DNA of 64,000 nucleotides. Source: Kofleriaceae bacterium (GTDB taxonomy: Bacteria > Myxococcota_A > Polyangia > Haliangiales > Haliangiaceae). The stretch spans positions 1 through 64,000 of the forward strand of contig JANTGM010000016.1 in the NCBI GenBank assembly GCA_024762925.1, written 5' to 3'. Shown here one piece after another: positions 1 to 6,905 of the stretch. Every line of letters starts with the position of its first letter. Position 1 is the first letter of the stretch. A program made the position numbers and the translations under genes. Below the pieces are notes generated by a model that saw only the letters and a program-made list of their open reading frames with translations, searched no databases and was not told the DNA's origin.

Positions 1-98
1 AGATCCTTGCTTGCCCCAGCAAGGTCGTCCTTCGCGCCTTGTCAAAGAACGAGCTCCCGTTGCCAGCACATTTCTATTCCTCTGAGCCGCACACTAGC
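1..98 (-). repeat. Dispersed ~100-bp repeat, copy A
   Basis: On the minus strand the unit opens with CTAGTGTGCGG and carries the family core GGGAGCTCGTTC followed by ACAAGGCGCG. The same order of short blocks is seen at 5739-5836, inverted at 5662-5750 and at 36494-36598, which shows a dispersed repeat. No coding potential is conserved. It lies just beyond the end of the tRNA array. Confidence 0.65.
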
Positions 99-99
99 G

Positions 100-192
100 A
101 GGCCATTGACCGATGAATAACGATGAGCAAAGCAGCCAGAGAGCGAAGAATCGAGTTTGCTTGGTCAATGTCCATGGATTGCGCACTAGAGG
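100..192 (-). repeat. Dispersed repeat, diverged copy E
   Basis: The right edge, TTGCGCACTAG preceded by TTGGTCAATG, matches the same part of the copy at 5739-5836 (GCACACTAG preceded by CGGTCAATC). An internal GCCAGAGAGCGA block sits at about the same distance from the edge as GCCAGAAAACGA does in that copy. The left half is weakly conserved. It begins 12 nt after the last tRNA of the array, so it may act as a 3' boundary or processing element. Confidence 0.4.
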
Positions 193-203
193 AGCAAAGT
201 GAG

Positions 204-274
204 AGCGGGCCAGGAGACTCGAACTCCTATCATGAGCTCGGAAGACTCAGGTCTTGCCGTTAGACGAGCCCCGC
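204..274 (-). tRNA. tRNA-Gly(TCC)
   Basis: A complete cloverleaf can be folded. The acceptor is GCGGGGC with GGCCCGC (one G-G mismatch). The D-stem is GTCT/AGAC, the anticodon loop is CTTCCGA (anticodon TCC), and the T-arm is AGGAG-TTCGAGT-CTCCT. The discriminator is T, as is usual for bacterial tRNA-Gly. CCA is not encoded. It is the last element of the minus-strand array. Confidence 0.85.
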
Positions 275-290
275 AAGTGGAACCAGCATT

Positions 291-365
291 TGGTACAGGA
301 CCAGAGAATCGAACTCTGCACGGCCGTCATGTAAAACAGTCCCACCGCCAGGTGAGCTGTCCTGC
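291..365 (-). tRNA. tRNA, probably Val(TAC)
   Basis: The acceptor GCAGGAC pairs with GTCCTGT and is followed by an encoded ACCA. The T-arm is CAGAG-TTCGATT-CTCTG and the D-stem is CTCA/TGGG. The anticodon region CTGT-TTTACATG-ACGG forms only four pairs and leaves an 8-nt loop, so the anticodon is uncertain. TAC (Val) fits the T33 rule best. The defective anticodon arm is one of several oddities in this array. Confidence 0.65.
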
Positions 366-382
366 ATGAGTTTGTAGTTGTA

Positions 383-422
383 GCGGGAGGGTCGCACGTG
401 CTCGCTTGAGCGAGCATCCCGC
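383..422 (-). ncRNA. Coaxial hairpin in tRNA spacer (candidate structured RNA)
   Basis: On the minus strand GCGGGA is followed directly by TGCTCGCT, loop CA, AGCGAGCA, a 10-nt one-sided bulge and TCCCGC. This makes an 8-bp helix stacked on a 6-bp helix. It lies between the Val and Ser tRNAs of an array linked to a Ro60-like gene. A Y-RNA-like or processing role is possible but unproven; I did not find a convincing Ro-binding signature. Confidence 0.35.
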
Positions 423-449
423 ATTGCCTGAGCAGAGCGATGGCATTGG

Positions 450-536
450 AGGAAGGTAGGAGAGTCGAACTCCTGCGACATGTATTTGCCGGCTACAGGT
501 TAGCAACCTGACCTCTTACCGCTCGAGCAACCTTCC
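450..536 (-). tRNA. tRNA-Ser(GCT)
   Basis: The acceptor GGAAGGT pairs fully with ACCTTCC. The D-stem is CTC/GAG, the anticodon loop is TTGCTAA (anticodon GCT), and the T-arm is AGGAG-TTCGACT-CTCCT. A long variable arm of about 20 nt marks a class II tRNA and fits serine. The discriminator reads T rather than the usual G. CCA is not encoded. Confidence 0.85.
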
Positions 537-555
537 AAAGCTACGATGTCGATCG

Positions 556-629
556 TGGTGCCCCCGGAAGGATTTGAACCTTCAACCAACCGGGTAAGAA
601 CCGGGTACTCTGCGTTGAGTTACAAGGGC
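556..629 (-). tRNA. tRNA-Lys(CTT)
   Basis: The acceptor GCCCTTG pairs with CGGGGGC using two G-U wobbles and is followed by an encoded ACCA. The D-stem is ACTC/GAGT with a 6-nt loop (AACGCA) that lacks the usual GG. The anticodon loop is TTCTTAC (CTT) and the T-arm is GAAGG-TTCAAAT-CCTTC. The loss of the D-loop GG would weaken the elbow contact with the T-loop. Confidence 0.8.
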
Positions 630-630
630 G

Positions 631-700
631 TGGCAGGCGACTGAAGAATCGAACTCCACTTAGCGGTGTTGGAAGCCACATTGATCCCAGATCGTCGCCC
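631..700 (-). tRNA. tRNA-Gly(TCC)-like, shortened D region
   Basis: The acceptor GGGCGAC pairs with GTCGCCT and is followed by GCCA. The T-arm TGGAG-TTCGATT-CTTCA is sound. The D region is cut to about 13 nt and can form only GATC-TGG-GATC. The total length is 70 nt including CCA. The anticodon arm closes with three pairs around GCTTCCAA, so anticodon TCC is the best reading. It is an abnormal tRNA or tRNA mimic. Confidence 0.6.
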
Positions 701-720
701 ATAGTTGTGTCATTTCGTCG

Positions 721-794
721 TGGGCCCACCCGGAGTCGAACCGGGAACTCGCTGCTTAAAAGGCAGACACGCTAACCAACTGCGTCATAGGCCC
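721..794 (-). tRNA. tRNA-Lys(TTT)
   Basis: The acceptor GGGCCTA pairs with TGGGCCC and the discriminator is A. The D-stem is ACGC/GCGT with a GG-containing loop. The anticodon loop is CTTTTAA (TTT) and the T-arm is CCCGG-TTCGACT-CCGGG. This is a regular cloverleaf with no encoded CCA, and the second lysine tRNA in the array. Confidence 0.9.
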
Positions 795-863
795 ATATTT
801 TGGATGGCGCCGTGGGACCGTGTTTTTGCTGTCCAGTAGTCATACATTTTCCTATGCGTGAAG

Positions 864-934
864 TGGGGGCAGAAGGACTTGAACCTTCGTGCAAGCGCTT
901 TACAGACGCGGCAACCAGCCCGTGGAGTGCCCCC
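864..934 (-). tRNA. tRNA-Tyr(GTA)-like
   Basis: The acceptor GGGGGCA pairs fully with TGCCCCC, the discriminator is A, and the T-arm is GAAGG-TTCAAGT-CCTTC. The anticodon loop CTGTAAA matches the bacterial Tyr loop. The gene is only 71 nt. The D region is compact and the long variable arm normal for bacterial tRNA-Tyr is absent. Anticodon-stem pairing is imperfect. Identity is read from the loop alone. Confidence 0.65.
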
Positions 935-1009
935 GTTCGTCTTGGCGCAAGAAAGCGAGAGGGAGTGAGAAGGAATGCGAGAGCGACCGAGTGAAGGTGC
1001 TGAGTTTCG

Positions 1010-1081
1010 TTGCAATGGCTGGTTTCGAACCAGCTACATTCAGTTTGACGACTGACGCTCTACCTAATGAGCTACATTGGC
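1010..1081 (-). tRNA. tRNA-Asp(GTC)-like with short anticodon loop
   Basis: The D-stem GCTC/GAGC and the T-arm GCTGG-TTCGAAA-CCAGC are good. The acceptor GCCAATG/CATTGCA pairs over only five bases. The anticodon stem TCAGT/ACTGA encloses just six bases, CGTCAA, so T33 is missing or replaced by C before GTC. Thr(CGT) is the alternative reading. This may be a degenerate tRNA or one not meant for decoding. Confidence 0.55.
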
Positions 1082-1111
1082 TTGTAAGCACTCTAGTAGG
1101 GGTCGCTCTCG

Positions 1112-1182
1112 TGGCTCCGGACCCTGGAGTCGAACCGCTTTCTTGTTGCATGGCAACAAGCCGGCTTTCTCCTGCGTCCGAT
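1112..1182 (-). tRNA. tRNA-like element with CAT anticodon, broken T-arm
   Basis: The acceptor ATCGGAC/GTCCGGA has an A1-A72 mismatch and ends in GCCA. The anticodon stem TTGTT/AACAA encloses GCCATGC, which puts CAT at the anticodon position but with C at 33. The T-arm retains GG-TTCGACT-CC with only two pairs, and the D-arm is weak. It recalls an initiator-type tRNA in the 1-72 mismatch and CAT, but is probably a pseudo-tRNA or mimic. Confidence 0.45.
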
Positions 1183-1353
1183 TCCAAAAACGGATATTGG
1201 GCCTCGCCGTCAGGCAAGGCCTAAAGACGTTGAACTTGGGCTTTCTAGAAGGGCACGCTCAAAAGCGAGTGGCCCTGTTGGTTTGTGCTTTATACATCTC
1301 CCTAGTAGGGCGTTGGACCCCGTGGTCCATAACAGCAAATTGAAAATCTCACT
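1183..1353 (-). ncRNA. Structured spacer inside the tRNA array
   Basis: This gap between two tRNA-like elements contains several hairpins on the transcribed strand: GGCCTTGCC-TGAC-GGCGAGGCC, a bulged GGG/CCC-CA/TG-CGC/GCG stem around 1250-1280, CCCTA/TAGGG and TGGACC-ACGG-GGTCCA. There is no open reading frame of note. It could be a small structured RNA such as a Y-RNA relative or a processing region; the function is unknown. Confidence 0.3.
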
Positions 1354-1426
1354 ACCGCCGAGTCGCGAGCCTGGAGCGGTTTGCTTGTTTCACAGACAAG
1401 TGCCTTATCCATTAGGCTAGTTCCAC
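1354..1426 (-). tRNA. tRNA-His(GTG)-like remnant
   Basis: The 5' two thirds look normal: GTGGAAC, D-stem GCCT/AGGC with a GG loop, and anticodon stem CTTGT/ACAAG with loop CTGTGAA (GTG). The 3' part does not fit: the T-stem CCGCT/GGCGG encloses about 15 nt, and no strand complementary to the acceptor follows. It is probably a pseudo-tRNA or 5' half. A well-formed tRNA-His lies at 5422-5493. Confidence 0.45.
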
Positions 1427-1431
1427 GTTTT

Positions 1432-1500
1432 TGGTGAGAACCCAGGATTCGAACCTGGATTTGCGTGTAAGGCTTCGCGTGGTGGCGGTATTGAGATTTT
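1432..1500 (-). tRNA. tRNA-Val(TAC)-like 3' half
   Basis: A perfect T-arm, CCAGG-TTCGAAT-CCTGG, is followed by GTTCTC-ACCA. The heptamer CTTACAC, identical to a Val anticodon loop, lies upstream but has only two flanking base pairs. No D-arm or matching 5' acceptor strand is found within a normal distance. The 5' boundary is arbitrary. It is best described as a tRNA 3' fragment directly after the E1 gene. Confidence 0.4.
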
Positions 1501-1551
1501 ATCTTAGTTGTGTTCTTTGGGTTTGTCAATCTCGAACGTGTCTTGCTGTCG

Positions 1552-2127
1552 CTATGTCTTGGTCGCTCCGCTCGGGGAAACTTCATATCCAACTCTTCGG
1601 TTGTCTAAGAAAAACTCCTGAGCGGCACGCGCAAGGTACGCTGACGTAATCGCAATGAAGGGCAGGAACTCTCCGCTCTCGCAGGTGGCAGAGCCTGGCT
1701 CTCCCTCGCTGTCGATTGCGAAGTTCTCGTCCCAAACAACGCGTCCGAATGATCCGTCGGGAGCTAGGGCACCGTGCAAGCACGGAACGTTGTGCTTGCG
1801 GACCCACTCTTGAACGAGCGAGCGAGATGTCGCATTGTCCAGACAGTCGATTACAAGATCTCCACCCAATAGCGCATCTTGATTGTCTTTAGATAGCTTG
1901 TGCGAGATTGTCTTAATCTTAGCTCCAAAGAGCATCTGCATGCTCTGTGCGAGAGATGCGACCTTCTTCTTGCCAACGCCTGGTTTGCTGTGAAACTGCG
2001 AGTAGACGTTCTTCTGTTCAACGCGGTCAAAGTCGATTGCCCGAATCGCCACATCCTCGCTCCGGAGGAACTGGACGACGTGCGACCCAAGAGCGCCGAC
2101 TCCTACGACGGTTATGTTTTTAGTCAT
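1552..2127 (-). CDS. Minimal ThiF/MoeB-type E1 (UBL-activating) enzyme
   Basis: A 191-residue Rossmann protein of the ThiF/MoeB/HesA E1 family, which adenylates the C-terminal glycine of ubiquitin-like proteins. Visible motifs are the glycine loop G9-V-G-A-L-G14, D32-F-D34 with N40 (nucleotide ribose and phosphate contacts), K53-K55, and the C95-L-D97-N98 motif. Cys149 in a TCESGE context, followed by a hydrophobic helix, is the best candidate catalytic Cys. The Arg that normally follows the Asn (N-x-x-R-Q) is Ser43 here. It is shorter than typical ThiF proteins (about 240-250 aa) and lacks a rhodanese domain. The start is fixed by AAAGGAGG 5-6 nt before ATG. It lies 41 nt downstream of the UBL candidate and is followed at once by the tRNA array. 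The family assignment is firm; the substrate is inferred from context. Confidence 0.85.
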   Translation of the reverse strand: MTKNITVVGVGALGSHVVQFLRSEDVAIRAIDFDRVEQKNVYSQFHSKPGVGKKKVASLAQSMQMLFGAKIKTISHKLSKDNQDALLGGDLVIDCLDNATSRSLVQEWVRKHNVPCLHGALAPDGSFGRVVWDENFAIDSEGEPGSATCESGEFLPFIAITSAYLARAAQEFFLDNRRVGYEVSPSGATKT

Positions 2128-2168
2128 GAGTTCCTCCTTTGGAACGAGTGAGTTCGGTTCGATTCTGC

Positions 2169-2435
2169 TTAGCCAAAGGGGGTTTTTGGACGCAGCTGAA
2201 TCAGATTGTACGGACGGTCCCGAGTGGCTCGAAATCGGTCCACCACAAATCCGTGGAAGGTCGCGGATGGTGATGGGCGAATCCCTGGGATGCTCCCATT
2301 GCGAACGGCCTCTGTTGCCCATGCCCGAATGTCGCCATCACTTGCATGTGTGTAAACAGAGTCTGGAAGATCTCCGTTCTGTCCTGCATAGGTGACGTTT
2401 ACCCGTGCTTCATCGTTTCGATATTGGTTGTGCAT
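2169..2435 (-). CDS. Candidate ubiquitin-like (beta-grasp) protein with C-terminal Gly
   Basis: An 88-residue protein. The predicted layout fits a beta-grasp fold: strand R11-Y16, strand about L23-A31, helix D35-N46, strand F60-F68, strand Y76-L81, then a flexible tail R82-P-K-T-P-F-G88. The reading frame stops directly after Gly88, so no maturation protease would be needed, as in ThiS, MoaD and similar E1 substrates. GGAG lies 8 nt before ATG. It sits directly upstream of the E1 and downstream of the unknown gene at 2493-3425. I cannot match the sequence to a named family; the UBL call rests on size, terminal Gly, predicted strand/helix order and E1 adjacency. An alternative is an unrelated small adaptor. 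Confidence 0.6.
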   Translation of the reverse strand: MHNQYRNDEARVNVTYAGQNGDLPDSVYTHASDGDIRAWATEAVRNGSIPGIRPSPSATFHGFVVDRFRATRDRPYNLIQLRPKTPFG

Positions 2436-2492
2436 TGTCGTTTCTCCGTAGTCGAGTTTGGTTGTTTAAGAATAGACCGCACGAGAAGGCCC

Positions 2493-3425
2493 TCAGGCAT
2501 GCCTGTAGACAACCAGGACGCCTTCTCGGTCGGCTTGACGGATTACAGCGGGGAGTGACTCCAAGGTGAAGAATGTGTCGCCCTTTTCGCCGGTTGTTTC
2601 ATCGGTGAGGCAAACGCCCGCGTCGATGATGCGCATCTGCGAGTCGCAAACGCACTCATAGCGTCGACCGTCGAGACGGTATCGCACGACACTCTCACCT
2701 CTGCGCGCGCTTCGTGTATCGAGCAGCTCGGCGCCACCAATGGCAAGTGCAGCCGCTGCGGCGGTGTGGAAGTCCACACGGGCCATATCACGACGACCTG
2801 CGCCGTTTCCGAGCGACTCGACCAAGCGCTTGCGCTCTTCTTCTCTTTCGCGCCTTGCAGTTTCTTCGGCTCGAAGTCGCTGCAGTTCCCAACGCCGCTC
2901 CTCTGCCTTGTCGCGTTCGTAACACTCAAGATCGAATGCTGCTTGTAGCGATGGGATAACGCCCTTGACGTTCTGTACAGAAGTATTCCTATCCAAGAAC
3001 GCCGAGAGAACATCGTCCTCAGGGCCCAAGGGAAATGCCAGTCCGCGATATACGAGCTGGCCGTGTTGGCGCAGAGCACCAACTTCGATGCGCGAGAACC
3101 GCTCAAGCCCTTCTTCAAGAAGATGAACTTGCTTGAAACGCCCAGTCCACTGGTGCTCGAGCTGTCCGGCTTGCGCGTGGTCGGGAACAAAGCGATTTCC
3201 TACAAGGAAGCCGGTTTGTACCCAGCCAAGCGATTCCGGCGCGGGCATTGCGGCTTGGGTGATTGATGCAGCACGCGGCTCAAGTCGAAACAGGTACCAG
3301 TCGTGCTCCTCGGGCAAGTCGCCCTTGATCGTTCTGGTTCGTCCACCGGAGTGGAGAGACCGTCCTCCCATCCAAGGAGCGACGATTGCCTGTTCCTCTT
3401 CTGTGATTAGATCTCTCCATCCCAT
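2493..3425 (-). CDS. Unknown 310-aa protein in Ro60/UBL/E1 operon
   Basis: I do not recognise this protein. The N-terminal part (about 1-175) is globular and mixed. A charged segment at about 174-215, rich in Glu and Arg, should form a long helix or coiled coil. The C-terminal part (about 220-310) begins with an Ala-rich helix and contains a conserved-looking Cys cluster: YECVCD followed by IDAGVCL, then GDTFFTLESLP. There is no signal peptide or membrane segment. AGGA lies 6 nt before ATG. It is 18 nt downstream of the TROVE gene and 57 nt upstream of the UBL candidate, so co-transcription is likely. It could be a conjugation target, an E2-like carrier using one of the clustered Cys, or an RNA-binding partner; none of these is demonstrated. 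Confidence 0.8.
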   Translation of the reverse strand: MGWRDLITEEEQAIVAPWMGGRSLHSGGRTRTIKGDLPEEHDWYLFRLEPRAASITQAAMPAPESLGWVQTGFLVGNRFVPDHAQAGQLEHQWTGRFKQVHLLEEGLERFSRIEVGALRQHGQLVYRGLAFPLGPEDDVLSAFLDRNTSVQNVKGVIPSLQAAFDLECYERDKAEERRWELQRLRAEETARREREEERKRLVESLGNGAGRRDMARVDFHTAAAAALAIGGAELLDTRSARRGESVVRYRLDGRRYECVCDSQMRIIDAGVCLTDETTGEKGDTFFTLESLPAVIRQADREGVLVVYRHA

Positions 3426-3443
3426 GTGTTTCCTTTGCCGCCG

Positions 3444-5339
3444 TTACGCCCAGGCGGGCTTCACAAGCAGGTCAGTCTTGAGGATTGTCTCAACAAGGCT
3501 CACGCGCTTTGGTGCTCGGCGACCAGAAAAGTTCTGGCCGACCGGTGTTGATGCAACGAGGTTGCGGATGGTTCTCGGGATTGCGTAGGGATCCTCGAAC
3601 GTATCCTCCTCGACCATGAAGCAAGGAACTCCAAGCTCAGCGGCCGTACCGCGAACAGCAGAGTAGTCATATCCCTGACGATATCGACCACTAGCAGCAC
3701 CGGTGCTAGCCGTTGTCTTTACAAATCCGAAAGCCATTGGGGCAAGCCCCGACTCGCGAACTTCCTTTGTGAAGGTTCCTCGCTCCTCTTCATCGCCTAC
3801 GAAGAAGAAGAGAACATCCGCGCCGTCCTTTGGCTTTGCGCTCTTGAGCGCGCGGATACCCGCTCCGTGTGACGTTCCGCCACCCGCACGGATTCCGCGG
3901 AAGGCATTCGCTACGCCAGCCGCAGATGCGTGCTTGATTTCGACAGTTCGTCCCTGTGTGTTGAAGGTCGCAATGTGAAGCTGCTCAAGTGTGAAGCCCT
4001 GAAGGAACTTTGAGACGTAGCTCTTTGCTGCTTCGATTGCTCCCTGCATAGACGCCGAGATGTCCACAAAAACGTAGATCTCGATGTCCTTGGCGACTTC
4101 AGCGACCGCCTTCTTCATTGCACCGTCGCTGGCTTTCTCAAGCTCCTCCTTCACTGCCTGTGACCGCACCTTGCGTGCGATGTTGACAGCTCGCATGTCC
4201 TCGGCAGCCTTGACCGCGAGAGTCCAGCGATCACGAACGTCCTGAACGTCAAGAAGGCCAAGGTCCTCGAGAGTCGGAGTGAGGATGACGATGTCCTTGT
4301 CGGAGAGAGCTCGTGCTTCCATGGCCGCAGCCACGATTGCGCGAGTCACACCAACATCCTTGGGAAGAAGGCCTACGATGCGCTTCCAGTTCGGCTTCTC
4401 TGCGACAATCTTCTCACAGATGTCCGCTTCGGTGAGTCCACCCCAAGTCTCAGCTGCAGAAACCACGTCTCCGACCGCGAGCGATCGGCGGCCATCTTCT
4501 GCCTGCTTCTGCTTCCATCGCAGAACCTCGAAGAACTTTGGCGTGAGTGGCTTGTAGCCAACTCGACGTGCAAGTTCCATCACGGTTGTGCGGAAGCCGG
4601 CCTTCACCAGCCCCTCGAGCATTCTTGGGTTTTTTTCGCGGTAGCGGAGCCACTTTTCAACAGCCTTTGGCCAACGACCGTAGAAGGCATGTCGAGTAGA
4701 GCGGCCGAATCCGAGATCCCGATTGATCTTGGCAACGCCAGGAAGGCTAAGAATTTCTCGTACGCGCAGAAGAAGCTTTGGGTTTAGATCCTTCTTGTCC
4801 TTGCGGCGCAGAAGAATCATCGCCTCACCGACATTGCGGAAGTCTTCATCGCAGAAGAGAGCTTTGCCGCCTTCCACTACCGGGTCTCCTTTGCGGGACT
4901 GCACAAGCATAAAGGCTGCCAGCACGACTTTCAGATCGCGGTGTTCCTCGGCAAACGCGAAGGATGCCCATCGGGCAGCGAACTCGTTGTCAAGCTTCCA
5001 GACCTCAGCGACTTGTGAGTAGAGCCAGGTGGCAACTTCGGGGAAGATGCCGGCCGCGCGATATTGCCCGACGGTGGTTCCGTTGTTCTGTACTCGGCCG
5101 TCGCTAAGAAGAATACCAAGCCGAACACGCGTCGACTTTGCGCCCTGTTTGACTTGCTTGTAGACAATCGGAGTGCCGTTCTCGACCTTGTGGGTAACGG
5201 GAATCCAACGCAGACCGAGATTTTGGCGGTTATCTGTCAGCACAACGCCAGGTCGGTTGTGGACCATGTGGTCGGTATAGGTAAGGAGGGCCTGGACGAT
5301 CGTTTCGGCAGGCCCGAGTGTGTTTGCATCAGTTGTCAT
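3444..5339 (-). CDS. rsr: Ro60/Rsr-like TROVE-vWA RNA-binding protein
   Basis: A 631-residue protein with the Ro60 architecture: an N-terminal alpha-helical TROVE/HEAT-like region (about 1-400) and a C-terminal von Willebrand A domain (about 420-590). The MIDAS motif is visible as DISAS near residue 427, with GGGTSHG and the later VGDEEE supplying further metal ligands. Ro60 family proteins bind misfolded RNAs and Y RNAs and act in RNA quality control. It is longer than human Ro60 (538 aa). The start is set at the ATG with GGAGAGG 6 nt upstream; the open frame extends 26 codons further but without an RBS. It is flanked by tRNA-His/Phe upstream and by the unknown/UBL/E1 genes downstream, all on the same strand. 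No rtcB is nearby. Confidence 0.88.
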   Translation of the reverse strand: MTTDANTLGPAETIVQALLTYTDHMVHNRPGVVLTDNRQNLGLRWIPVTHKVENGTPIVYKQVKQGAKSTRVRLGILLSDGRVQNNGTTVGQYRAAGIFPEVATWLYSQVAEVWKLDNEFAARWASFAFAEEHRDLKVVLAAFMLVQSRKGDPVVEGGKALFCDEDFRNVGEAMILLRRKDKKDLNPKLLLRVREILSLPGVAKINRDLGFGRSTRHAFYGRWPKAVEKWLRYREKNPRMLEGLVKAGFRTTVMELARRVGYKPLTPKFFEVLRWKQKQAEDGRRSLAVGDVVSAAETWGGLTEADICEKIVAEKPNWKRIVGLLPKDVGVTRAIVAAAMEARALSDKDIVILTPTLEDLGLLDVQDVRDRWTLAVKAAEDMRAVNIARKVRSQAVKEELEKASDGAMKKAVAEVAKDIEIYVFVDISASMQGAIEAAKSYVSKFLQGFTLEQLHIATFNTQGRTVEIKHASAAGVANAFRGIRAGGGTSHGAGIRALKSAKPKDGADVLFFFVGDEEERGTFTKEVRESGLAPMAFGFVKTTASTGAASGRYRQGYDYSAVRGTAAELGVPCFMVEEDTFEDPYAIPRTIRNLVASTPVGQNFSGRRAPKRVSLVETILKTDLLVKPAWA

Positions 5340-5421
5340 TGGACCTCTCCAAGTGGTGTGTGTGCGGCCGTTTCTCGCAAAGACCATTCTTCGCGGTTCT
5401 CGAGCCTTGTGGGGCAATTGG

Positions 5422-5493
5422 GGTCATTGAGGAGAATCGAACTCCTGTCAATCGGATCACAACCGATGGCTCTACCATTGAGCTACAACAACC
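5422..5493 (-). tRNA. tRNA-His(GTG)
   Basis: The acceptor GTTGTTG pairs with CAATGAC using G-U wobbles. G-1 opposite discriminator C73 is the histidine identity pair. The D-stem is GCTC/GAGC, the anticodon arm is ATCGG-TTGTGAT-CCGAT (GTG), and the T-arm is AGGAG-TTCGATT-CTCCT. CCA is not encoded. It lies 82 nt upstream of the TROVE start codon, in the same direction, so it could be carried on the same primary transcript. Confidence 0.92.
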
Positions 5494-5496
5494 ATG

Positions 5497-5572
5497 TGGT
5501 GCCTCAGCTTCGAATCGAACGAAGTTCTTCCGGGCTTCAACCAGACGCACTGACCTGTAGTGCTACCGAGGC
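5497..5572 (-). tRNA. tRNA-Phe(GAA)
   Basis: The acceptor GCCTCGG pairs with CTGAGGC and is followed by an encoded ACCA. The D-stem is GCAC/GTGC, the anticodon arm is TCTGG-TTGAAGC-CCGGA (GAA), and the T-arm is CTTCG-TTCGATT-CGAAG. It is a regular cloverleaf, separated from tRNA-His by three bases. Confidence 0.92.
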
Positions 5573-5661
5573 AATTTGAAACCGGGCACCAGAATATTCC
5601 GGCACCCAATTTCAATGCGCCTGGCTTTGCCAAACGCGAGTCGTTCGCTTCCTTCCGGAAG

Positions 5662-5750
5662 CTAGTGTGCGATCCAAAATGTTTGACCGGCCCTCGCTTG
5701 GTTTCTCACCTTCTGGGCGCTTCGCTCTGAGTTGCTCGTCGGTCACGTAT
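5662..5750 (+). repeat. Dispersed repeat, inverted copy D
   Basis: It starts CTAGTGTGCGATCC and continues AAAATGTTTGACCGG, matching the opening of copy B read on the other strand (CTAGTGTGCAGATC, then AAATGATTGACCGG). Together with copy B it forms a large imperfect inverted repeat centred near 5745. The apparent 81-codon minus-strand frame across it (5612-5857) is a by-product of the repeat. Confidence 0.6.
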
Positions 5751-5836
5751 CTCGATACGCTCCACTCCTTGCGCCTTGCCAGAAAACGAGCTCCCGGCGC
5801 GATCTTCCGGTCAATCATTTCGATCTGCACACTAGT
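5739..5836 (-). repeat. Dispersed repeat, copy B
   Basis: Read on the minus strand it runs from CTAGTGTGCAGATC through GGGAGCTCGTTTTCTGG and CAAGGCGCAAGG to GTGACCGACGAGC. The order and spacing match copies at 1-98 and 36494-36598. It lies between tRNA-Phe and tRNA-Gln in the Ro60/E1 island. Confidence 0.65.
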
Positions 5837-5874
5837 CGCGTCCTGCCGCCAGGACACGGGTTTGTTTGTCCTAA

Positions 5875-5953
5875 GCTAGCGCCAGAGAATTCTTGCGCCG
5901 CTAGCAAATGGGGCACAACTGGCCCCCGTAATGGGGACGTCGCATGTCCCCAT
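5875..5953 (-). ncRNA. Three consecutive hairpins between tRNA-Phe and tRNA-Gln
   Basis: This short stretch holds a near-palindrome, GCTAGCG ... CGCTAGC around GAGAATTC (about 5875-5905), a GGGGC/GCCCC stem (5910-5926), and a perfect 8-bp stem ATGGGGAC/GTCCCCAT with a 7-nt loop (5931-5953). No reading frame is present. It is transcribed, if at all, within the tRNA-Gln to tRNA-Phe interval upstream of the TROVE gene. It is a candidate structured RNA, attenuator or processing signal. Confidence 0.35.
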
Positions 5954-6044
5954 TCATCGTTATGCTATTCAATTGTCAAATCTGCTATCCGTGCAACGCC
6001 GTGAGCGCGTCAATCAAGACGGCTGGATACGAACGCCATAGACA

Positions 6045-6118
6045 TGGTTGGGAAGAGAGGATTCGAACCTCCATGGACCGGTTCAGAGCCGGGCATCCTG
6101 CCATTGGATGACTCCCCA
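6045..6118 (-). tRNA. tRNA-Gln(CTG)
   Basis: The acceptor TGGGGAG pairs with CTTCCCA and is followed by an encoded ACCA. The D-stem is ATCC/GGAT with a GG loop. The anticodon loop is CTCTGAA (CTG) within a CCGG/CCGG stem, and the T-arm is GGAGG-TTCGAAT-CCTCT. The TGGGG 5' end is typical of tRNA-Gln. It is the first recognisable element of the minus-strand island. Confidence 0.92.
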
Positions 6119-6905
6119 AAATGTGGACCCAGAGGCCCACTACGGAAGGTTTGCTGCTAGTCGATTTTGCCCGAGGGCCCGAAACGAAGAACGCCACCGA
6201 GGTCTCCCTGGGCGGCGTGCTAACAAAAGATATGGTGTTCTTTCGCTAGGTTGCTACCCCCGTTTGGCTCTCCACTTGAAAACGGAAATCCTTGCTGGCT
6301 GTTGCTTGCGAGCTGAGCCCTTGACAGGAAATACGACAAAGCACTCTCCCGGGTTTGGCGGCCAGCGGATTGATCGCACTGGAATCAGCCATGAAGGACT
6401 GCCACTCAATGGCCTGAGAACTCATGACGTTCGCATCCGACTCGCAATACGGGAGATGGCTCCACGTATCGGCAATCTCAGCGTTATGTAGGGTTCTAGT
6501 CATCGATTCTGTGAGGCTCTCTTTGTTGTCGGCGATGCTTCCGCCGAAGTGGATATCAGTATAACACCGAGTCGCAGCAAGGACCAAGCGCTTCGTGACA
6601 CTTGGTTGCATTCTTGGGTGGGAGCCCGGTTTGGACTTGCGATGCGATGGCATTCCCCAAAGCGAGCTCGGTGGCTGAGAGAAATGCTGAGGAGCAACCT
6701 GGGCGACGACGACACCTTTGTTGCGCCTCTACGGCGAGGCCAAGTCTTGCAACGGTATTGGTCGAGATGCTGCGATGGACTTCGAGGAGCGCGGTTGCGA
6801 GCGAACGATCTCGGCGGCGTGCAGTTGTGTGAACTGCTTCTCGTCAACGACCGCGATCTCTTGTTCAAACTCGCCCGAGGACCGGTTCCTTACACTCACC
6901 ACACT
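6119..6905. other. Gene-poor region upstream of the tRNA/Ro60 island
   Basis: About 790 bases carry only poorly supported open frames on both strands, with no start signal, domain or consistent composition that I can defend. The part next to tRNA-Gln should hold the promoter of the minus-strand island, but I could not find a convincing -35/-10 pair. Decayed coding sequence is possible. Confidence 0.5.

Follow-up and report, generated by a model that had tools for sequence, protein, structure and literature searches.

The first 6118 positions of a 64,000-nucleotide stretch of DNA from a Kofleriaceae bacterium (the window, by which we mean the whole of the stretch analysed) hold an island of tRNA genes and four protein genes, every one of them on the minus strand (Table 1). 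In the direction of reading, tRNA-Gln, -Phe and -His stand ahead of a gene for a vWA-domain protein, here called Ro60-like, which is followed by genes for a partner protein of no named family, for an 88-residue candidate ubiquitin-like protein (Ubl) and for an E1-like adenylyltransferase, with the remaining tRNAs downstream of the E1. An earlier note on this DNA had given the same one-strand order, with gene spacers of 18, 57 and 41 nucleotides, and both are borne out, the spacers by ATG starts at 5339, 3425, 2435 and 2127; the ThiF-type E1 that it named is likewise recognized by Pfam ThiF (4e-19), its nearest families being MoeB and ThiF. From comparison with viral and bacterial genomes we propose, tentatively and at a little short of an even chance, that the island is a bacterial copy of a giant-phage cassette, which would encode an RNA-quality-control particle for tRNAs under the control of the Ubl.

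The gene order is widely conserved. A search with the vWA protein gave 29 loci in IMG/VR and 72 bacterial contigs, and with the E1 as query we obtained another 66 viral loci, some of them shared with the first set, and L027 a second time. Wherever all four genes occur together, they always stand in the order Ro60-like, partner, Ubl, E1 on one strand; this holds for 21 of the 29 and 59 of the 66 loci in the two overlapping viral sets and for 32 of the 72 bacterial ones, and many of the incomplete loci are short or cut by contig ends. By their titles the bacterial carrier contigs come from Myxococcota, Verrucomicrobia, Acidobacteria and other groups. The possibility, raised in the earlier note, that TROVE, E1 and tRNAs are never conserved together therefore fails, order and strand being kept in viral and bacterial genomes alike.

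Most carriers have a fifth gene, which encodes a JAMM (JAB) peptidase. Of 37 records or genomes the Prok-JAB model matched 31, in 16 cases above the cut-off (with Pfam, Prok-JAB was matched at 1.4e-6 by the closest phage and at 3.5e-7 by a related genome), and the seven phage matches that were placed by hand all lie between partner and Ubl. A motif scan upstream of the Ubl found a JAMM-type open reading frame (ORF) in 115 of 123 loci; with a profile made from those ORFs, JAMM was recognized in 116 of the 123 Ubl loci. By the same profile there is no JAMM in the full 64 kb of the window, which is why the fifth gene was missed at first reading. When ORFs of at least 70 amino acids from 58 non-redundant viral loci (after removal of L189, with its unrelated E1, and of eight near-duplicates) were clustered at blastp 1e-8, the same-strand families were E1 (58 loci), partner (55), Ubl (55), JAMM (55) and vWA (52). 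Among the 25 largest clusters the next (37 loci) consists of ORFs that overlie the vWA gene out of frame, and all others, including HNH genes and overlapping frames, occur in at most 20 of the 58 loci; there is thus no sixth recurrent family, nor any sign of a constant E2, in these loci, though no search was aimed at E2 enzymes. The HNH-type endonuclease genes, which recur in the viral arrays L124-L188 in at most 20 of 58 loci per cluster, may help to move and shuffle the arrays. In M. eversor a distance of 9.4 kb separates JAMM from Ubl and E1, which follow downstream on its strand, and in M. xanthus AM003 they lie on a 19,310-base contig, by its length the one with the vWA gene, where by coordinates they would be about 6.8 kb downstream of that gene and on the same strand. 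Archangium and Corallococcus have other genes between JAMM and Ubl; these were considered as members and rejected, Pfam assigning them to GH31 glycosidase, GMC oxidoreductases and DUFs.

The JAMM gene is linked to the form of the Ubl C-terminus. Members of the Ubl family end in RPKTPFG or a near variant, with either no tail beyond it or one of up to about 60 residues, and the glycine is conserved except in L175, which is Ala-ended. For the tree and the comparison of tails, the loci were reduced to 117 with E1 and Ubl and then to 86 distinct ones by dropping those with no E1, an unreadable Ubl end, an E1 of less than 150 residues or a duplicate E1; L056, whose contig ends just past the Ubl and which shows neither JAMM nor E1, is outside the 86, and L054, in which a JAMM lies after the Ubl start and none between partner and Ubl, was scored as JAMM-positive. 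All six of the six distinct loci without JAMM, the group to which the window belongs, have a tail-less, glycine-ended Ubl, and in the 80 loci with JAMM the Ubl is tail-less in 17 and tailed in 63 (Fisher p=2e-4 for the 86 loci, a value not fully freed of relatedness, from a test framed after the window and a few loci had been seen). On the tree the six JAMM-minus rows represent six separate changes, at least five of them forced by well-supported branches, and this count is a lower bound because it compares only with the 17 JAMM-positive tail-less rows. A close trio makes the same point on a small scale, the Labilithrix-type L091 and L105 having JAMM and a two-residue tail and L115 neither. That all JAMM-minus loci are tail-less is what maturation of the Ubl by JAMM would predict; in the 17 tail-less loci that keep it, JAMM may serve to remove the Ubl from targets. 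The Ubl tails of L020, L021, L149 and L177 contain zinc-knuckle-like CxxC pairs, so those tails may act before their removal.

It is these features, namely the C-terminal glycine, the E1 and JAMM neighbours and the link between tail and JAMM, that indirectly support the 88-residue protein as a Ubl candidate, much as the earlier note had supposed. Its sequence speaks the other way: a profile comparison with ThiS (hhalign) gave no match, and library searches gave only stray weak family matches, the best being single Ubl members at E 0.004-0.01. A search with PF14454 matched nothing anywhere, controls included, and is uninformative.

For the vWA protein the note's label "TROVE-vWA" survives as a predicted fold and not as a Pfam family. 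The C-terminal vWA domain carries D426-x-S428-x-S430, T489 and D516, invariant across the family, in the pattern DxSxS...T...D that we take to be the metal-binding site of the Ro60 vWA domain. Foldseek searches with an AlphaFold model built from 41 sequences (predicted local distance difference test, pLDDT, 81.7; predicted template modelling score, pTM, 0.66) gave as best PDB match 9nep, Ro60 with misfolded pre-5S rRNA, at 1e-7, with 9kop (Trove domain), 9l5y (Ro60 of Thermus phage phiLo) and 1yvp (Ro with RNAs) among the other top matches. These alignments extend over 500-600 columns with template modelling (TM) scores of 0.34-0.51, so the domain placement differs or is uncertain, and VIA-align placed 9kop on model residues 9-626 with 422 residues aligned (Z 13.1, root-mean-square deviation 5.3 A), a score due in part to the vWA domain since numerous vWA-only structures reach Z 13-15. 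The model thus supports a Ro60-like fold of helical repeats and vWA domain. On the other side of the balance, Pfam TROVE (PF05731) matched neither the window protein nor any of 31 relatives at E 0.1, and when its profile was aligned with that of seven true TROVE proteins the match was weak (hhalign E 0.002, probability 12-14%); we therefore call the protein Ro60-like and do not place it in PF05731, which has no match in the window's own genome either. Plasmid sequences yielded no relative of the Ro60-like protein; separately, the Dolichospermum plasmid pAfl69 (L210) carries a distant vWA protein, partner and ThiF-type E1 in the same order, and in the 8.2 kb examined there neither tRNA nor JAMM was found.

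The partner is modelled with confidence (pLDDT 87, pTM 0.63) as having a beta-rich N-terminal part, OB-like by weak matches, a long helix at 158-206 and a small alpha-beta-beta-beta-alpha end domain. Its weak structural matches include OB-fold RNA proteins (Dis3L2, RNase II, exosome parts, S17, IF1A) and the Mpa interdomain (Z 4.9), and the end domain has a dsRBD-like order of elements, a few dsRBD entries appearing among the lower matches; from these we would guess that the partner binds RNA. Less favourable to that guess, the model has no significant match in PDB or BFVD. Neither partner nor Ubl found a usable family in Pfam, NCBIfam, PHROGs or PADLOC (DUF3833 was matched in 5 of 46, at E of 0.023 or above), and profile searches of the PDB reached the vWA part and E1s of MoeB type alone, partner and Ubl finding nothing below E 0.04. 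Partial second copies of the partner occur in two viral loci (L024 9223-9330 and L026 7866-8231).

A search of 11 genomes for the E1 succeeded in ten, the exception being G001. In all 89 distinct E1 sequences C149, K55 and D97 are present, which we take to be the catalytic cysteine and two ATP-site residues. The arginine of NxxRQ, presumably the usual arginine motif of E1 enzymes, occurs in none of the 89, its place being taken by Ser, Ala, Gly or Tyr (S43 in the window), so the chemistry of this E1 may differ, a point that counts against the reading proposed here.

An E1 closest to MoeB and ThiF, a glycine-ended Ubl and tRNA surroundings would also suit a sulfur relay, in which a Ubl thiocarboxylate made by the E1 donates sulfur to tRNA presented by the Ro60-like protein, as in TtuB/TtuC of Thermus. 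There Ubl, E1 and JAMM act around tRNA in thiolation, and a T. thermophilus JAMM mutant has altered TtuB conjugates and half the tRNA thiouridine (excerpts of PMC3980101). The failed ThiS comparison counts against such a relay, as does the absence of any constant thiotransferase neighbour from the 58 viral loci, which follows from the lack of a sixth family in more than 20 of them beyond the out-of-frame ORFs, no search having been aimed at thiotransferases. The cassette differs from the Thermus system in having no constant neighbour of TtuA type, again with no search aimed at TtuA/Ncs6, an enzyme that the host could supply, and we regard a sulfur relay as unlikely.

The tRNAs of the window are well supported. 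With ARAGORN at the 95% setting we find ten tRNAs in 1-6200, all on the minus strand, whereas the remaining 57.8 kb of the window has no tRNA, nor does any of 20 dinucleotide shuffles, so that the cluster is far from chance; Rfam finds eight above its cut-off and one below it. Downstream of the E1, ARAGORN reports six tRNAs by default and seven at the 95% setting, and of the "about eleven" counted there in the earlier note these seven are well supported, the others amounting to up to three weak ones (the 80% setting gives 1 to 10 matches even in shuffles). The genome has 49 tRNAs, and the two with the lowest scores are in the island. A promoter scan found 1 site against 2.3 expected, and a terminator scan was likewise at chance. 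The window starts at base 1 of the 82.5 kb contig C16, in a genome of 6.8 Mb and 246 contigs, and the left end of the island is therefore open; a cluster of six tRNAs (Asp, Pro, Ile and three Leu) on a different contig of the same genome (L194, G000:C72:16000-30453) could be the continuation of the array.

Table 1. Features of the window island (coordinates in the window) and, in the last row, other RNAs beside the cassette in viral loci
Feature	Position	Strand	Basis
tRNA-Gln(CUG), outer 5' edge of island	6045..6118	-	ARAGORN + Rfam
tRNA-Phe(GAA)	5497..5572	-	ARAGORN + Rfam
tRNA-His(GUG)	5419..5492	-	ARAGORN + Rfam
Ro60-like protein, 631 aa	3444..5339	-	Pfam vWA, alignment, AlphaFold model, structure searches
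Partner protein, 310 aa, no named family	2493..3425	-	alignment, model
Ubl candidate, 88 aa, C-terminus ...RPKTPFG, tail-less	2169..2435	-	family alignment
E1-like (ThiF/MoeB) adenylyltransferase, 191 aa	1552..2127	-	Pfam, alignment
Weak tRNA-like element, 25 bits against a cut-off of 29	1370..1426	-	Rfam, sub-threshold
tRNA candidate in array	1112-1188	-	ARAGORN 80% setting only
tRNA, anticodon not assigned	1009..1081	-	ARAGORN/Rfam
tRNA-Tyr(GUA)	863..934	-	ARAGORN; outside the 8 Rfam matches
tRNA-Lys(UUU)	720..794	-	ARAGORN/Rfam
tRNA candidate in array	631-710	-	ARAGORN 80% setting only
tRNA-Lys(CUU)	556..629	-	ARAGORN/Rfam
tRNA-Ser(GCU)	447..536	-	ARAGORN/Rfam
tRNA-like, probably Val (by eye)	291..365	-	ARAGORN 95% setting
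tRNA-Gly(UCC)	203..274	-	ARAGORN/Rfam
tmRNA or small signal recognition particle (SRP) RNA beside cassette (two tmRNA, one SRP)	L125 18743-19095; L182 11865-12243; L146 11605-11697	cassette strand	Rfam

The tRNA surroundings recur in the other carriers. In ten phage records, judged by the best 150 of 424 tRNA matches, 112 tRNAs are no more than 30 kb from the cassette, where length alone would predict 23, 109 of these are on the cassette strand, and in eight of the ten phages the listed tRNAs cluster round the cassette. Within loci the strands of tRNAs and cassette agree in ratios of 227:0, 849:25 and 96:1, and loci with at least five tRNAs number 17 of 29 and 43 of 66 in the viral sets and 5 of 72 in the bacterial one. 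Among the best 150 of 199 Rfam matches in six viral loci there are also two loci with tmRNA and one with SRP RNA. A number of carriers do not conform: in two of the ten phages (G328 and G336) the listed tRNAs stand at a distance from the cassette, the viral sets include 12 of 29 and 23 of 66 loci with fewer than five tRNAs, and none accompanies the cultured Myxococcus, Archangium and Corallococcus loci. To these may be added the Vibrio phage pir03, for which PMC7765460 reports a Ro60-related protein and no tRNA. No Y RNA appears in the Rfam list of the window or in two further complete Rfam lists. A Ubl-like match in pir03 (E 0.2) was rejected as it falls within a 449-residue ORF, with no cassette. 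The link to tRNAs is strong, and it is not obligatory. A canonical TROVE-vWA gene amid 27 one-strand tRNAs was observed in a related bacterial genome (L202, G005:C80:25000-44000), where the 19 kb hold no cassette genes; in seven other TROVE genomes no tRNA lies within about 1.5 kb of the TROVE gene.

These exceptions bear on the alternative that the tRNAs are passengers, brought near the cassette only by the clustering of translation genes in phages, and that its substrate is some other RNA or a host protein of defence or translation, which it would modify. The tRNA-free cassettes of cultured myxobacteria, the two phages with distant tRNAs and pir03 would all fit such a view. It is less easily squared with the crowding and common strand of the phage tRNAs given above, with the occurrence of tRNA-rich loci in Verrucomicrobia and Myxococcota contigs as well, or with the canonical TROVE gene among 27 tRNAs, although the seven other TROVE genomes blunt this last point, and we think it has only a small chance of being right.

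That the cassette belongs to giant phages is indicated by its carriers, many of which are viral contigs of 200-600 kb. One, Virus Rctr197k, is classed as a tailed phage and has annotated terminase-like and head morphogenesis genes, and an uncultured phage of 595 kb has distant vWA, partner, E1 and JAMM genes and 29 tRNAs. Relatives of the Rctr197k terminase, a query that did better than the insensitive Phage_portal and Terminase_6N models (0/5 and 3/31), are present in 20 of 29 IMG/VR records and in none of nine bacterial genomes; the window's own genome has no terminase relative, with queries that also miss some phages and a contig that ends at base 1. On the E1 tree, which has a midpoint root only, the window falls in a mostly viral clade of 46 rows, its closest neighbour there, weakly supported, being a contig titled Sorangium. 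The genes to the right of the island (protein kinase, 4Fe-4S, SelO and others) look bacterial. A congeneric Kofleriaceae genome has a Ro60-like gene 72-74% identical and the start of the partner beside different bacterial genes, and the stretch 5965-6119, at the tRNA-Gln edge, is 86% identical to a same-edge stretch in that genome. Because of this recurrence beside other bacterial genes, the island was probably acquired by the chromosome and a chimeric contig is unlikely.

The window copy might then be a decaying phage remnant without function, as the missing JAMM, the two lowest-scoring tRNAs and the lack of a terminase relative in the genome would suggest. We doubt this: none of the four reading frames is interrupted and each retains the residues invariant in its family, the absence of JAMM is paired with a tail-less Ubl, and the congeneric genome retains its Ro60-like gene and partner start near other bacterial genes. 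Least probable of all is that the bacterial cassette is a host stress or antiphage system which phages acquired from their hosts to counter or mimic it, for although the other main E1 clade, of 20 rows (nearly all Myxococcota and Verrucomicrobia by title), takes in most of the bacterial chromosome-type sequences, several genomes there have compact, overlapping cassette genes, and the E1 matches PADLOC E1-E2 models over part of the model (5.6e-12), the window copy is in the mostly viral clade of the midpoint-rooted tree and PADLOC has no match for Ro60-like protein, partner or Ubl and only weak ones for JAMM.

Phage Ro proteins and sets of E1, JAB and Ubl are each already known separately. The Salmonella operon rsr-yrlBA-rtcBA joins Rsr and Y RNA to tRNA repair (PMC7790460, in part), and the cassette resembles it, as far as that account goes, in the Ro60-like fold, the nearby tRNA or tRNA-like RNAs and the context of tRNA damage; it differs in having no recurrent sixth gene of RtcA/RtcB type, no Y RNA in the Rfam lists above and no Pfam TROVE match, and in the addition of Ubl, E1 and JAMM. 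Ro proteins (ROT/TROVE) are reported from a subset of jumbo phages in excerpts of PMC7824862, and canonical TROVE was found by tblastn in 340 of 50,697 phage records, with two tRNAs near one. With the Ro proteins of mycobacteriophages, Streptomyces phages, Thermus phage phiLo and jumbo phages the cassette shares a phage-borne Ro60 fold, and it differs from them in that its protein is a different, divergent Ro60 branch; profiles of the cassette genes found none in one mycobacteriophage Ro locus (25.6 kb). The operons of Iyer 2006 likewise bring E1, JAB and glycine-ended Ubl together, the JAB being proposed to free the Ubl glycine (PMC1779556, in part), and on that partial account the cassette is unlike them in its separate E1 and JAMM genes, its lack of a recurrent E2 in the 58 viral loci and its constant Ro60-like and partner genes. 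Phage tRNA sets counter anticodon nucleases, according to parts of PMC10264068, and from plain sets of this kind the cassette is distinguished by its conserved protein genes embedded among the tRNAs. Literature searches, to which subscription papers were mostly out of reach, found no description of Ro60 combined with Ubl: by term search the accessible parts of PMC7824862 have no account of Ubl or JAB and those of a 2026 jumbo-phage review (PMC13282480) no TROVE, Ro60 or ubiquitin, the corresponding parts of Iyer 2006 do not mention TROVE, and a Borg paper (PMC12660748) treats deSAMPylases, in the portion available, without Ro60.

Returning to the Ubl-controlled RNA-quality-control particle, we can suggest how it might work, in a scheme that is plausible and, on balance, somewhat improbable in its full form: a Ubl cycle of JAMM and E1, without an E2, would control a Ro60-type particle that guards the tRNA and tmRNA supply of giant phages. 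The Ro60-like protein and its partner would bind tRNA that is broken or misfolded, and also the phage's tmRNA, in the way that bacterial Rsr binds structured RNA. JAMM would trim the Ubl to its glycine and later take the Ubl off again, and the E1 would adenylate the Ubl and, there being no recurrent E2, itself pass it on to lysines. The target would most likely be the Ro60-like particle or another RNA-handling protein, switched on or off by the modification, and during infection the phage-supplied tRNA pool would be kept usable while the host cuts tRNAs. In the window, where the Ubl is made already mature, the system would work without JAMM, and tagging would be constitutive or reversed by the host.

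The cassette appears to join RNA surveillance of the Ro60 kind and ubiquitin-like modification in one conserved five-gene unit. It also gives the tRNA arrays of giant phages, an old puzzle, a protein partner that can be tested, and the copies in cultured Myxococcus, Archangium and Corallococcus make genetics and pull-downs feasible.

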